Origin: Microbacterium sp.
Lineage (GTDB): Bacteria; Actinomycetota; Actinomycetes; Actinomycetales; Microbacteriaceae
Assembly (NCBI RefSeq): GCF_011620665.1
Contig: NZ_WOYQ01000049.1
Coordinates: 1 to 64,000, forward strand
Length of the DNA: 64,000 nucleotides
Direction: 5' to 3'
Shown: positions 6,255-64,000 of the stretch, in pieces
How the letters are laid out: each line of letters opens with the position of its first letter
How positions within the stretch are numbered: position 1 is the stretch's first letter
Position numbers and translations under genes: made by a program
The notes under the pieces: model-generated
Seen by the model: only the letters and a program-made list of their open reading frames with translations
What the model was told of the DNA's origin: nothing
Database searches by the model: none

Positions 6255-6373
6255 ACCGCGGCATCCTGGTGGTCGCCATTCTCACTCTGTCCGCCGGCGA
6301 ACGACGACGAGCTCAGGCGCAGGCTGCGCACGGAGCGTGCCGAATCAGAAGCCACAGACCGCTCGAGCAGAGC

Positions 6374-7684
6374 TCAGGGAGCCTGCGAGAGGAACAGCCC
6401 CGCGAGGGTCTTCTTGCCCCGGCGCAGCACCGACACTCCGCCCGGCAGCGTGCCGGTGACGGCTGCCCCCTCGTCGGCGACCTTGACACCGTCGAGGCTG
6501 ACCCCCCCCTGAGCGATCGCGCGCCGGGCCTCCGAGAGCGAGGCGACGAGGCCCGTGTCGACAAGCGCCTGCACGACGGAGGTTCCCGCTGGGATCTCTG
6601 CGTGCGGCAACTCGGTCAGCGCCGCACGCAATACGTCCGGATCGAGCGCTGTCAGATCACCACCACCGAAGAGCGCGTCGGATGCCGCGATCGCGGCGGC
6701 GGCGGCATCCCCCCCATGCACGAGACTCGTCACCTCGAGCGCGACCCGCTTCTGTCCGATGCGGTGGAACGGCTCGGCGTTGTGCGCCGCCACGACCTCT
6801 TCGATCTCGGCACGCGTGAGAAATGTGAACACCTTGAGACGATCGGCCACGTCGGCATCATCGGTGTTGAGCCAGAACTGGTACATGGCGTAGGGGCTCG
6901 TCAGCTTCGCATCGAGCCAGATCGCGTTGCCCTCGCTCTTGCCGAACTTGCGGCCGTCACTGTTCGTGATGAGCGGCGTGCCGATCGCGTGCACGCTCTT
7001 GCCCTCGGCGCGGTGGATCAGGTCCACACCGCTCGTGAGGTTCCCCCACTGGTCGCTGCCTCCCGTCTGCAGCACGCAGCCGTACTGCAGGAAGAGCTCG
7101 CGGTAGTCGAGGCCCTGCAGGATCTGGTAGCTGAACTCGGTGTAGCTGATGCCCGCCTCAGAGCTCAGGCGTGCGCTGACGGCATCCTTCTTGAGCATCG
7201 TGCCGACACGGTAGTGCTTTCCGATGTCGCGGAGGAAGTCGATCGCGCTGAGCGGAGCGGTCCAGTCGAGGTTGTTCACGATGCGAGCGGCGTTCTCGCC
7301 GTCGAAGCTCAGGAACCGCTCGATCTGCGAGCGCAGGTATCCGACCCATTCGGCAACGGTCTCTTTGGTGTTCAGAGTGCGCTCCGCGGACGGCCTCGGG
7401 TCGCCGACGAGTCCGGTCGAACCCCCGACGAGGCCGATCGGCTTGTGACCGGCGAGCTGGATGCGGCGCATCGTGAGGAGCTGCACCAGGTTGCCCAGAT
7501 GCAGGCTCGGTGCAGTCGGGTCGAATCCGCAGTAGTACGTGATCGGCGGGCCGGCGAGTAACGCGCGCAGTGAATCCCGGTCGGTCGAAACATGGACGAG
7601 GCCGCGCCACACCAATTCGTCCCAGATGTTGTCGAACGTCGGATCGATCGCGGGGGTGCTCGGGATCAGAGCGGGAGAAGACAC
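6374..7684 (-). CDS. tyrS: Tyrosyl-tRNA synthetase
   Basis: YCGFDPTAPSLHLGNLVQLL and KFGKSEG motifs, C-terminal S4 region. GTG start (MSSPALIPSTPAIDPTFDNIWDELVWRG) preferred over the extended ORF. Confidence 0.95.
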   Translation of the reverse strand: MSSPALIPSTPAIDPTFDNIWDELVWRGLVHVSTDRDSLRALLAGPPITYYCGFDPTAPSLHLGNLVQLLTMRRIQLAGHKPIGLVGGSTGLVGDPRPSAERTLNTKETVAEWVGYLRSQIERFLSFDGENAARIVNNLDWTAPLSAIDFLRDIGKHYRVGTMLKKDAVSARLSSEAGISYTEFSYQILQGLDYRELFLQYGCVLQTGGSDQWGNLTSGVDLIHRAEGKSVHAIGTPLITNSDGRKFGKSEGNAIWLDAKLTSPYAMYQFWLNTDDADVADRLKVFTFLTRAEIEEVVAAHNAEPFHRIGQKRVALEVTSLVHGGDAAAAAIAASDALFGGGDLTALDPDVLRAALTELPHAEIPAGTSVVQALVDTGLVASLSEARRAIAQGGVSLDGVKVADEGAAVTGTLPGGVSVLRRGKKTLAGLFLSQAP

Positions 7685-16549: not shown

Positions 16550-16658
16550 TGTCCCACCCTATTGTCTGGTGACGTGTGGTCTGCATAAAGCCCGAAGCGG
16601 GAAGCCCCACGTCTCGACCCGACCGGGAACACCGGGCTTCAGCCGGGCGCCTGCACGG

Positions 16659-21921: not shown

Positions 21922-22830
21922 TCACTCTGCCGCGTCGACGGCCGGCTGGGTACCGGTGACGCCGGCCGGGCCGAGGTTCTTGTCGAAGATCGCCGTCCAG
22001 ATGTCAGGGCCATCGGTCAGCGTCGTGTTGATGAACTCGACGAAGGCAGTGTCACCCTTCTGCACACCGATGCCGTATCGCTCCTCGCTGAACGGGTCAC
22101 CGACCACCTTGAGGTTGTCGGGGTCCTGCGCCGCATAGCCGATGAGGATCGCCTGGTCGGTCGTGACGGCGTCCACCTGGCCGTTCTTGAGCTGCTCGAC
22201 GCACTCGGAGTACTTGCTGAGCTCGACTGTCCCCGCCGGGGTCTCGGTCTTGATCCGCTCGATCGACGTCGACCCGGTCACCGAGCAGACGATGCTGTCG
22301 GCCGTGAGCGCGTCCACCCCGGTGATCGTGTCATCGTCGGCGGCGACGAGGAGTCCCTGACCGGTCACGAAGTAGGGACCGGCGAAGGAGATCTGCTCCT
22401 TGCGCTTGTCGGTGATCGAATACGTGCCGACATAGTAGTCGATGTCGCCGTTGATGATCGCCTGCTCACGGTTGGCGGAGTCGATCACCTGGAAATCGAT
22501 GTCGGCCTCGTCATAGCCGAGAGAGGCCGCCACCCAGCGTGCGACATCGATGTCGAAGCCGCTGCGCTCCCCCGTGGTCGGGTCGAGGTAGCCGAGGTTC
22601 GGCTGGTCCTCTTTCACGCCGACCTTGACCGTGCCGCGTTCGGTGATGGCGGCGACCGTGTCGCTTCCCTCGACGGCGGGCTTCGGGTCGGCGACGGTGA
22701 ACCAGACATCCGCCGCCCCCCCCTCGCTCGCGTCCGGCGTGGCACTGGGTGTGCCGCTGTTGCAGCCGGTCAGCGCCAAAGCGGCAACCGCGGTGATCCC
22801 GAGGCCGGCGATCAGTGTCCTCTTGCGCAT
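21922..22830 (-). CDS. gluB: Glutamate-type ABC transporter substrate-binding lipoprotein
   Basis: Lipobox ALTGC; SBP family 3 sequence VGVKEDQPNLGYLDPTTGERSGFDIDVARW. Confidence 0.88.
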   Translation of the reverse strand: MRKRTLIAGLGITAVAALALTGCNSGTPSATPDASEGGAADVWFTVADPKPAVEGSDTVAAITERGTVKVGVKEDQPNLGYLDPTTGERSGFDIDVARWVAASLGYDEADIDFQVIDSANREQAIINGDIDYYVGTYSITDKRKEQISFAGPYFVTGQGLLVAADDDTITGVDALTADSIVCSVTGSTSIERIKTETPAGTVELSKYSECVEQLKNGQVDAVTTDQAILIGYAAQDPDNLKVVGDPFSEERYGIGVQKGDTAFVEFINTTLTDGPDIWTAIFDKNLGPAGVTGTQPAVDAAE

Positions 22831-43081: not shown

Positions 43082-43753
43082 TCAGTCGAATCGAACGCCC
43101 CGTGCAGCGGGGCGTTCGAGCTCGGACAGGGCCTGACGCGCCACACTGAGCGCGGATCCGCCGTAGCCCCGGCGCGAGAGTTGCCCCACGAGGCGACGGA
43201 CGGCAACCTCTCGATCGAGGCCACGCATCGCGCGCGCCTTCTGCCGGGCGAACTCCAGCGCGCGTTCCGCGTCGTCGTCGGCCAGTTCGGCCAGTGCGGC
43301 ATCGGCGACGTCTCGAGGAACGCCGCGCTGCGCCAGAGCAAGGGAGATCGCCTGTCGACCCTGACCCTTGCGCGTGATCCCGGCATAGATCAGCTGCTCC
43401 GACAGCCGGACGTCGTCGAGATACCCGTGGCGCAGCAGAGCATCGATGACGTGCTCGATCCCCTCAGGAGACACGTCGTGCTCGCGCAGGAACGCACGCG
43501 CCTCGCGCTCGGAAAGGGAACGCACGCGAAGCTTCTTCATCAACCGTTTCTCGGCGAGCTCGCGATACTCCGCTTCGTCAGGCTCCACCGGCGACTCAGC
43601 GGCTCCCTCGGGCCCGGTCCACGTCGTATGCCACGCGCCATCGCTGGGGGCACCGGGCTCGAACTCACCGGGACTCCCCTGTTCGGGGGTCGCGGCCGGA
43701 GCCGACCCGCCGAACAGGGGAATCACCGGAGCGAGATGATCGTCAAAAGTCAC
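43082..43753 (-). CDS. recX: Regulatory protein RecX
   Basis: LRVRSLSEREARAFLREHDVSPEGIEHVIDALLRHGYLDDVRLSEQLI; adjacent to recA. Confidence 0.92.
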   Translation of the reverse strand: MTFDDHLAPVIPLFGGSAPAATPEQGSPGEFEPGAPSDGAWHTTWTGPEGAAESPVEPDEAEYRELAEKRLMKKLRVRSLSEREARAFLREHDVSPEGIEHVIDALLRHGYLDDVRLSEQLIYAGITRKGQGRQAISLALAQRGVPRDVADAALAELADDDAERALEFARQKARAMRGLDREVAVRRLVGQLSRRGYGGSALSVARQALSELERPAARGVRFD

Positions 43754-52871: not shown

Positions 52872-52913
52872 GATCCCAGGCTACCGGTTCCCGCCTACCC
52901 CGGTTCCGCGTCG

Positions 52914-54316: not shown

Positions 54317-54754
54317 ATGACCCTGTCGGATGCCGTCCTCATCCTCGCTGCATTGCTCGTGGTCACGATCGGCATCGGCGCCTCCCTCCGCTGGCGGCAG
54401 AATCGTCCTCGTCACCAGGATCCGAGCGAAATCGTGCAACCGCAGCGGCTGGGCGCCGCGGCGCTCGGTGAGCGCGCAACCCTGCTGCAGTTCAGTACTG
54501 AGATGTGCGCGCGGTGCCCCGGCGTCCATCGCACGCTGAGTGCGATCGCCGACAACAACGACGGCGTGCTGCATCTCGACGTCGACCTGACCCACCGCCC
54601 GGACATCGCCCAGCACTTCCACGTGCTGCAGACGCCGACCACCCTCATCGTCGACGGCGACGGCGTCGTCCAGACCCGCTTCGGCGGCACGCCTCGGCGC
54701 GACGTCATCGAGCTCGAGCTCGCGCGCGTGACAGCCGTGCGCGCCCCGGTCTGA
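54317..54754 (+). CDS. Membrane-anchored thioredoxin-fold protein (CxxC active site)
   Basis: N-terminal TM; TLLQFSTEMCARCPGVHRTLSAI; cis-Pro region LQTPTTLIVDGDG. Confidence 0.85.
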   Translation: MTLSDAVLILAALLVVTIGIGASLRWRQNRPRHQDPSEIVQPQRLGAAALGERATLLQFSTEMCARCPGVHRTLSAIADNNDGVLHLDVDLTHRPDIAQHFHVLQTPTTLIVDGDGVVQTRFGGTPRRDVIELELARVTAVRAPV

Positions 54755-54857
54755 TCGTCCTCACGACACCTGTTCCCCTGTCGGTGACTGCGGTCTAGGC
54801 TCAACGAGAGGCGAGCGCGCGCCGCCGTCGATTCCGCCGATCCGCACAGGAGGGCCC

Positions 54858-55061
54858 ATGAGCGTCACGAGCGAAGCGAGCACGAGCTGGAAAGGCAACC
54901 TCGCCGACGGCGCGGGCGACGTCGCTCTCCGCGTCGACGCAGTCATGCCGGGCCTTGCGGCAGATGACTTCGCTCGGATCGCCGCGGAGGCCAAGACCGG
55001 CGGTCCCGTCTCGGCCGCCCCCAGCGGCATCGAGATCACGGTCGAGGCGACGCTTGCCTGA
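54858..55061 (+). pseudogene. OsmC/Ohr-family peroxiredoxin with in-frame core deletion (67 aa remnant)
   Basis: N-term SEASTSWKGNLADGAGDVALRVDA joined to C-term VMPGLAADDFARIAAEAKTGGPVSAAPSGIEITVEATLA; central helix and both catalytic Cys absent. Confidence 0.65.
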
Positions 55062-55965
55062 GACCCTCGTAGAGGTCACCGATCGAGTGGTCGTCGCCGG
55101 GGCATCCGGGTTGATCGGTCGCGCGCTCGTCGACTCTCTTCGCGCCGACGGGATCGCAGTCACCCGGCTCGTACGTCGACCGGCCGAAGCGGCTGACGAG
55201 CGGGCCTGGGATCCAGGCAACGCGCCCCTCAATCCGGCGATCCTGCGCGGCGCCCGAGCAGTCGTGGGTCTGAACGGAGCCAGCATCGGCCGCTTCCCAT
55301 GGACAGCCCGGTACAAGCGCGAGCTGCTCTGGTCACGACTCACCCCGACCCAGACTCTCACCGCGGCGCTCGGCGAACTGGGCCCCGAGGGCCCCGCGTT
55401 CGTGTCGGCATCCGCCGTCGGCTACTACCCTTCCGCCCCCGGAGCGGTCCTCACCGAGGACTCGCCGCGCGGTGATGAGTTCCTCTCGGACCTCTGCGGT
55501 GAGTGGGAGTCCGCGGCGCAGCGCGCACCCGGCCGCGTCGCCCTCTTGCGCACCGCGCCGATCGTGCATCCCGAAGGTGTGCTGAAGCCGCTCATGCTTC
55601 TCACGAACCTCGGAGTCTCCGGCCCGATCGGCCGAGGCACGCAGGTATGGCCGTGGATCTCCCTCGCCGACGAGGTGCGCGCGATCCGGCACGTCATCGA
55701 CTCTGACCTGGCAGGTCCGGTCAACCTCACGGGACCTGCCCGCGCCACCGCGAACGATCTCGGCTTCGCGCTTGCACGGCGGATGAACCGGCCCTATCTG
55801 TTGCGTGCGCCGGAGTGGGCGATCTCACTCGTCCTCGGTCGCGACGCGACACGATCCCTGCTGACGGGCGACATGAACGTGGTGCCGCTGGCCCTGCAGA
55901 CATCCGGCTTCACGTTCACACACCCCACGGTCGAGGACGCCGTCGCTGCAGCGGTTGCCGCCTAG
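55054..55965 (+). CDS. TIGR01777 family NAD(P)-binding protein (epimerase-like)
   Basis: RVVVAGASGLIGRALVDSLRADG; SASAVGYYPS; TTG start inferred. Confidence 0.88.
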   Translation: MPETLVEVTDRVVVAGASGLIGRALVDSLRADGIAVTRLVRRPAEAADERAWDPGNAPLNPAILRGARAVVGLNGASIGRFPWTARYKRELLWSRLTPTQTLTAALGELGPEGPAFVSASAVGYYPSAPGAVLTEDSPRGDEFLSDLCGEWESAAQRAPGRVALLRTAPIVHPEGVLKPLMLLTNLGVSGPIGRGTQVWPWISLADEVRAIRHVIDSDLAGPVNLTGPARATANDLGFALARRMNRPYLLRAPEWAISLVLGRDATRSLLTGDMNVVPLALQTSGFTFTHPTVEDAVAAAVAA

Positions 55966-62527: not shown

Positions 62528-63679
62528 TCAGTGCGGAAGCACCGCGTAGGGCGCCTCGGCGGCACGGCCCTGGAATTGAAGGATCGCAGGGTTCTGCACA
62601 TCGCCGTCGAGGACTTCGATCGCGCGTGAGACGGTGTCGCTTTCAGCCCAGGTGGGTGGGCCGGCCATGACGGTCGGGAGGAATCCGAGGAGCGCTTCGC
62701 TGATCTCCCAGCTGGCGGAGTTCCACAGGTACGACGGACTGTGGTCGACCGCGTAATAGTTCGTGCTCGCGCCGACCGTGAACATGGGCTCGGCGAAGCT
62801 CGTCGGGCGCGCCCACTCGAACCCCATGCCCTCGTCGCACGAGACGTCGACGATGAGGCTGCCGGGGCGGAAGGACGACAGATCAGACTCGCGCAGATAG
62901 AGCAGCGGGGCATTCGGGTCTTGGAGCGTGCAGTTGACGACGATGTCGCTCTCGGCCAAGAAGGGGGCGAGCGGCACACGGCCCTCGTCGGTGATGACTT
63001 CGCTCAGGTAGGGTCCGCTGTGGTCGAACTGGATCATCTGGGCGGCGTGGATCGGTGATGCCACGGACGCGGTCTGCCTGTTGGTCAGCACCCGGACATC
63101 GTGCACACCGTGTGCGCGCAGCGCCGTCACCGCTCCCCGCGCGGTGGCCCCGAAGCCGATGACCACCGCGGTGAGACGCCGCCCGTAGTCGCCTGTCGAG
63201 CCGCACAGCGCGAGCGCGTGCAGCACCGAGCAGTAGCCGGCGATCTCGTTGTTCTTGTGAAACACGTGAAGGCCGAAGGTGCCGTCGCTCCCCCAGTGGT
63301 TCATCGCCTCGAACGCGATCACCGTGAGTCTCTTGTCGAGTGCGATCTGAGTCATCACCGCGTCCTGCACGAGATGCGGCCACCCCCACAGCACCTGACC
63401 GACACGCATGTCACGCAGATCGGCGTGCTGCGGCTTGGGCAGCAGGAGTACGTCGGCTGTAGCGATGAGCTCACCGCGGTCGAGGATGCCGCCCACCAAG
63501 GGCCTCAGTTCCGCGTCCGAGACACCGAATCGCGCGCCGTAGCCCGTCTCGAGGAGCACGTTCGATCGCAGATCATCGGGAATCCGCTCGACGTGGCTCG
63601 GATGGATCGGCACGCGCCGTTCATCGGGCTTGCTCGAGGCGCCGACGACGCCCATGGTCAGCAGTGCCTGAGGCGTCAT
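62528..63679 (-). CDS. Alanine dehydrogenase/PNT-fold protein, N5-(carboxyethyl)ornithine synthase-like
   Basis: GVVGASSKPDERRVPIHPSHVERIP; NHWGSDGTFGLHVFHKNNEIAGYCSVLHAL; Rossmann VIGFGATARGAVTAL. Confidence 0.75.
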   Translation of the reverse strand: MTPQALLTMGVVGASSKPDERRVPIHPSHVERIPDDLRSNVLLETGYGARFGVSDAELRPLVGGILDRGELIATADVLLLPKPQHADLRDMRVGQVLWGWPHLVQDAVMTQIALDKRLTVIAFEAMNHWGSDGTFGLHVFHKNNEIAGYCSVLHALALCGSTGDYGRRLTAVVIGFGATARGAVTALRAHGVHDVRVLTNRQTASVASPIHAAQMIQFDHSGPYLSEVITDEGRVPLAPFLAESDIVVNCTLQDPNAPLLYLRESDLSSFRPGSLIVDVSCDEGMGFEWARPTSFAEPMFTVGASTNYYAVDHSPSYLWNSASWEISEALLGFLPTVMAGPPTWAESDTVSRAIEVLDGDVQNPAILQFQGRAAEAPYAVLPH

Positions 63680-63757
63680 CTTGGTCTTCTTCCCCCACAG
63701 GGGCCGAGTTCGACTCCATTGCCTCGACGGTATCAGGACCCGATGGGATCGCCCCGC

Positions 63758-64000
63758 TCACGCTGCGGACTGCGGCGCCCTCGTCGCTTCGCCGCGGCGG
63801 ATCAGCACATAGTCGTCGTGCTTGGCCGAGATGCCGTCGCCGGCCGTGCGTCCACGTGCCCGTCGCCACGCCCATGGCAAGGCATGACGGAGCAGCCAGC
63901 CCGACCGGGCGGGAAGATCATCGTCGGCGTGGAGCGCGGCATCAAGTCCACCCAGGGTCTCGGCGTCGGGCACCCCGAGCGCGTCGGCGGCACGGTAGGC
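63758..64000 (-). CDS. Hypothetical protein, C-terminal part (start lies beyond the window)
   Basis: Frame open to the window edge: AYRAADALGVPDAETLGGLDAALHADDDLPARSGWLLRHALPW...; no family recognised. Confidence 0.5.
   Translation of the reverse strand, partial: AYRAADALGVPDAETLGGLDAALHADDDLPARSGWLLRHALPWAWRRARGRTAGDGISAKHDDYVLIRRGEATRAPQSAA

Follow-up and report, generated by a model that had tools for sequence, protein, structure and literature searches.

A probable osmC remnant with an in-frame loss of its core in a small Microbacterium genome

In a genome of Microbacterium sp. (RefSeq assembly GCF_011620665.1) a short ORF begins and ends like the gene for the OsmC peroxidase, and the question is whether it is a decayed gene, a short protein with a use of its own or a fault of the assembly. 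The window, by which is meant the whole stretch of 64,000 nucleotides that was analysed (positions 1 to 64,000 of contig NZ_WOYQ01000049.1), carries this ORF between a thioredoxin-like gene and a gene of the TIGR01777 family (Table 1). The explanation that accounts best for the observations, and which is considered highly likely, is that of an osmC gene recently inactivated in a shrinking genome, of which the two ends survive.

Table 1. Positions of the osmC remnant, its parts and the neighbouring features in the window
Feature	Position in window	Strand	Basis
Thioredoxin-like gene (PF00085), CxxC intact, upstream of osmC	54317..54754	+	Pfam profile
Promoter-like motif GTTCC-(16 nt)-GTCTAGGCTC, ~60 nt before the ATG	54772..54802	+	Common to related genomes; putative function
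Shine-Dalgarno-like AGGAGGG before the remnant ATG	54848..54854	+	Sequence; GAGGAG / AGGAGG similarly spaced in relatives
osmC remnant ORF, 67 codons + TGA	54858..55061	+	Profile match and codon alignment
N-terminal 25 codons kept (OsmC strands 1-2)	54858..54932	+	Codon alignment with relatives; control-model strands E3-12, E19-25
Deletion junction; 222 bp missing between flanking matches to G175 and G340	54929..54932	+	BLAST blocks
C-terminal 42 codons kept (end of strand 5, helix 2, strand 6)	54933..55058	+	Codon alignment, control model
Former codon of C123, the second catalytic cysteine; reads GGT (Gly) here	55002..55004	+	Cys in 55/55 intact Microbacterium OsmCs
RBS-like GAGG and downstream TTG start, within the osmC 3' end	55044..55056	+	gtcGAGGcgacgcTTG; relatives arranged alike
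SDR/epimerase-like gene of the TIGR01777 family (YfcH type), intact, TTG start	55054..55965	+	TIGR01777 240.5 bits, above the cut-off of 207.35

Make-up of the short ORF and of the missing block

The 67 codons include the ATG, which is preceded by a Shine-Dalgarno sequence, and are closed by a TGA stop. The 67-aa product could be aligned over its whole length with the OsmC of 141 aa (TIGR03562) found at the same locus in related Microbacterium, minus one in-frame block. The NCBIfam profile TIGR03562 matched residues 22-64 of the product with E=2.9e-9 and 37.1 bits, below the curated cut-off of 85.8 bits that is the threshold for membership of the family, and an intact relative's OsmC scored 158 bits against the same profile. 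The PDB OsmC structure 1ukk matched the C-terminal part (E=1.2e-4), and Pfam profiles gave no match to the 67-aa product. An initial annotation, made from the sequence alone, had described the ORF, with its position and a length of 67 codons, and its OsmC-like ends; all of this is real, and the OsmC match on which that annotation made its reading depend was found.

Codon alignment with relatives put the deletion at 222 bp, which is 74 codons exactly and corresponds to OsmC residues 26-99 of 141. BLAST blocks against the two nearest genomes, those of Microbacterium memoriense (G175) and uncultured Microbacterium 3-1141-3Z (G340), stop at 54928 and restart at 54932, with 225 nt in each relative against 3 nt in the window. 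The frame is preserved and a central segment is missing, as had been claimed, although that segment is not of about 80 residues but of 74 codons. The initial annotation had also held that the deletion removed both catalytic cysteines. Both are indeed gone, but by different routes: the peroxidatic cysteine C60 (HSxCFSM, helix 1), a cysteine in 55/55 relatives, sits inside the deleted block, whereas the second (resolving) cysteine C123 (K-x-G-C-P-V-S) belongs to the retained part and was lost to a substitution, from TGC in relatives to GGT. Together with V104 and L129 it is invariant in 55 intact Microbacterium OsmCs, and the three residues are Gly, Met and Pro in the remnant. The invariant columns R39, E50 and E51 all fall in the deleted block; in the OsmC family an Arg and a Glu close to the peroxidatic Cys have a catalytic role (PMC8945050).

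The OsmC/Ohr monomer consists of two subdomains, an N domain of three strands and a pair of helices on a three-strand sheet, and the homodimer is the active form (PMC8945050). The remnant departs from this arrangement in having neither helix 1 nor the central strands; in the model of an intact relative the deleted block spans the helix 49-71 with C60, the strand 78-88 and most of the strand 92-103. The same intact relative aligns nearly full length with the OsmC structures 1ukk, 1nye and 1qwi (E about 1e-22 to 1e-24), in which the central helix and strands lost from the window product are present. The predicted structure of the remnant was poor, with a pLDDT of 58.6 and a pTM of 0.37 as against 80.7 and 0.76 for the full-length control, and a fold search with it against the PDB gave no match at E<=0.001, which for a model of such low confidence can be read only as 'no clear match'. 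It would appear that the product cannot act as an OsmC peroxidase, and it is probably without folding.

Comparison with relatives shows one deletion of 222 bp in this lineage, which joined codons 1-25 in frame to codons 100-141. Lost with it are the peroxidatic cysteine and its helix, the central strands and the region of the catalytic Arg/Glu. The second cysteine and other invariant residues have changed as well; the promoter-like motif and Shine-Dalgarno at the 5' end and the GAGG and TTG at the 3' end have been kept. Peroxide defence would presumably be left to Ohr and OhrR, an intact pair encoded at another place in this genome.

The locus in relatives and the genome setting

By their osmC locus the nearest genomes, M. 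memoriense and 3-1141-3Z, are at about 80-81% DNA identity. In both, a complete osmC encoding 141 aa is flanked by the same neighbours as in the window, the set common to all three being DHFR, thymidylate synthase, the thioredoxin-like gene, osmC and the TIGR01777 SDR, and the gene is also intact in the other relatives checked. The OsmCs of M. memoriense (L085/L097) and 3-1141-3Z (L064/L098) agree with the window gene in locus, neighbours, start and end and are respectively 82% and 79% identical to it over the retained residues, but they are 141 aa long with both cysteines, whereas the window gene is without residues 26-99 and C123.

The remnant was matched by 97 of the 99 genus genomes searched, its own included, yet a continuous match over residues 1-67 was found in its own genome only, and the fused form occurred in none of the other Microbacterium species with a match (0/96). 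A pattern built on the DNA at the sides of the junction matched its own genome alone among 369 genomes, and is too strict to tell more. An independent conserved 67-aa family was rejected, since the proteins of relatives are 141 aa long and no other genome has the fused form; a 67-aa length shared by close relatives is what the initial annotation had set against its own reading. A viral or plasmid origin was likewise rejected because viral contigs and plasmids held no relative of the remnant, and a defence gene because PADLOC gave no match. A literature search for osmC beside a TIGR01777 neighbour found none.

An intact copy stands at the orthologous position in close relatives and residues critical for function are lost, which are two of the marks of a pseudogene. 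In-frame deletion pseudogenes are known as a general kind in reduced bacterial genomes. They likewise show one deletion, lost catalytic residues and a shrinking genome; the present case does not differ from them in any essential way, and here the start site of the downstream gene has survived. The genome measures 2.21 Mb with 99.55% completeness; among 369 genomes of Microbacterium species no other near-complete one is as small, the next having 2.3 Mb. The deleted block was not found elsewhere in this assembly, and relocation of the core or a second osmC copy in the genome was rejected, the search having given only the remnant and a weak Ohr match.

Wider gene decay was judged on one 78.5-kb contig, C3, which carries the window. 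It lacks several stretches of 0.4-3.7 kb that are present in both nearest relatives and is net 6.0-8.8 kb shorter. Such losses also bear on the suspicion that the gene is truly intact and that 222 bp were collapsed in the assembly, a suspicion invited by a draft of 82 contigs and a species represented here by one genome. It is nevertheless very unlikely to be correct: the nucleotides common to both junction ends number about 3 at most, so that there is no long repeat that could cause a collapse, the deletion is in frame, further clean deletions occur in the same contig, and the retained part has separately lost C123, L129 and V104, in accord with a real loss of function. Of the two readings offered by the initial annotation, that of a recently decayed gene is the better supported, by the intact 141-aa orthologues at the locus, the loss of the cysteines and of two invariant residues, the collapsed fold prediction, the small genome and the other deletions.

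Stretches missing relative to G175 and G340 lie at window positions 6283-6389, 16622-16656, 52888-52910 and 57704 and at C3 positions 69444 and 75801. ORFs in the G175 versions resemble, by eye, whole lost genes, for example a PiT-like phosphate transporter (75801) and an EamA-like transporter (69444). About 3 kb at window 63662-64000, continuing to C3 66664, is absent from relatives, as are two further stretches (C3 67733-68987 and 73805-74863), each 1.0-1.2 kb long. The ORF at window 43085-43753 has an apparent internal gap of 34 aa against the relatives' orthologue (223 vs 257 aa).

The intact Ohr is encoded on contig C45 (L001), scores 175.9 bits against a TIGR03561 cut-off of 88.85 and has both active-site cysteines; the OhrR-like gene is also there. 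Ohr belongs to the OsmC/Ohr superfamily like osmC, and unlike the remnant it is intact. Besides the remnant, the OsmC-family genes of this genome are ohr and one further OsmC-like gene; relatives carry three or four OsmC-family genes. A run of about 100 N, which may be a scaffold gap, lies close to the ohr and ohrR-like genes, at about 2463-2564 of L001.

Expression signals and the downstream SDR gene

Upstream of osmC 21 other related loci also carry TCTAGGCTC, 42-74 nt away from the ATG, the distance being 64 nt in G175, 63 nt in G340 and 64 nt in the window. A scan for sigma-70 consensus promoters upstream of the remnant found nothing. The case is a clean example of gene loss inside an operon, the deletion having fallen between ends that bear expression signals. 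With the 5' and 3' signals retained ribosomes could still cross the short frame, and would end at the SDR start.

The start of the SDR gene was placed by homology with G175, which sets in precisely at residue 34 of the ORF as mechanically called, that is, at base 55054 (TTG). By way of this start the 8-nt overlap with the next gene that had been noted at the outset is real. The TTG...TGA overlap is found in 43/55 intact relatives and is ancestral, and synonymous conservation is raised over the last osmC codons in the genus (55 intact relatives). Across the junction one of the other two frames leads to a fusion to the SDR and the other to a stop at 54965, so the ancestral stop-start overlap survives only in deletions of the in-frame class. 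In-frame survival fits, without proving, selection for coupling, chance alone being one in three. The ends may plausibly have been kept to serve translation of the SDR gene downstream, a suggestion drawn only from the surviving overlap and the embedded RBS-like sequence. That the remnant is a selected 'leader' ORF bringing ribosomes to the SDR start, with the nucleotide arrangement and not the peptide under selection, is a tentative and rather doubtful proposition.

Coupling need not have played any role. In a variant that shares the core of the favoured explanation the gene simply decays, the in-frame junction being a one-in-three accident and erosion set to continue. All other features of decay are present in any case, random deletions keep the frame one time in three, the SDR has its own RBS-like GAGG and TTG, and 12/55 relatives are without the TTG overlap. 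The dependence of the ancestral overlap on the in-frame class and the raised synonymous conservation at the osmC 3' end both tell against the variant, which is given an appreciable but somewhat less than even chance of being right.

Selection on the retained codons

On the window branch the remnant had a dN/dS of about 0.22 (dN about 0.09, dS about 0.40), and most relative pairs gave ~0.09; the excess over relatives was not significant on 67 codons (Fisher p 0.11-0.32). The ratio is well below 1, which indicates that purifying selection acted over most of the branch, and the pattern is consistent with recent loss of the gene.

The same ratio might be turned in favour of the other reading of the initial annotation, by which the 67-aa product is a repurposed mini-protein kept by selection, e.g. 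one that regulates or partners another protein of the OsmC/Ohr family. Retention of the frame, of the promoter-like motif and of the ribosome-binding site could also be compatible with a short protein that is still of use. A low dN/dS is however expected if most of the branch is older than the deletion, the product is found in one genome only, three family-invariant residues have been lost from it and its predicted fold is poor and without a fold match. The mini-protein reading has no positive support and is considered highly improbable. There is no evidence for a new function, and nothing new follows for the function of OsmC from what is an ordinary case of gene decay. For annotators the case is a caution, in that the 67-aa ORF should not be labelled an OsmC peroxidase.

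The median branch dN/dS in contig C3 was 0.134 vs 0.065 in the relative pair (69 ORFs, some of which are not true genes). One protein, at window 21925-22830, is unusually fast-evolving for its surroundings, with 63% identity to G175 and a branch dN/dS of 0.465 against 0.046 for the relative pair.
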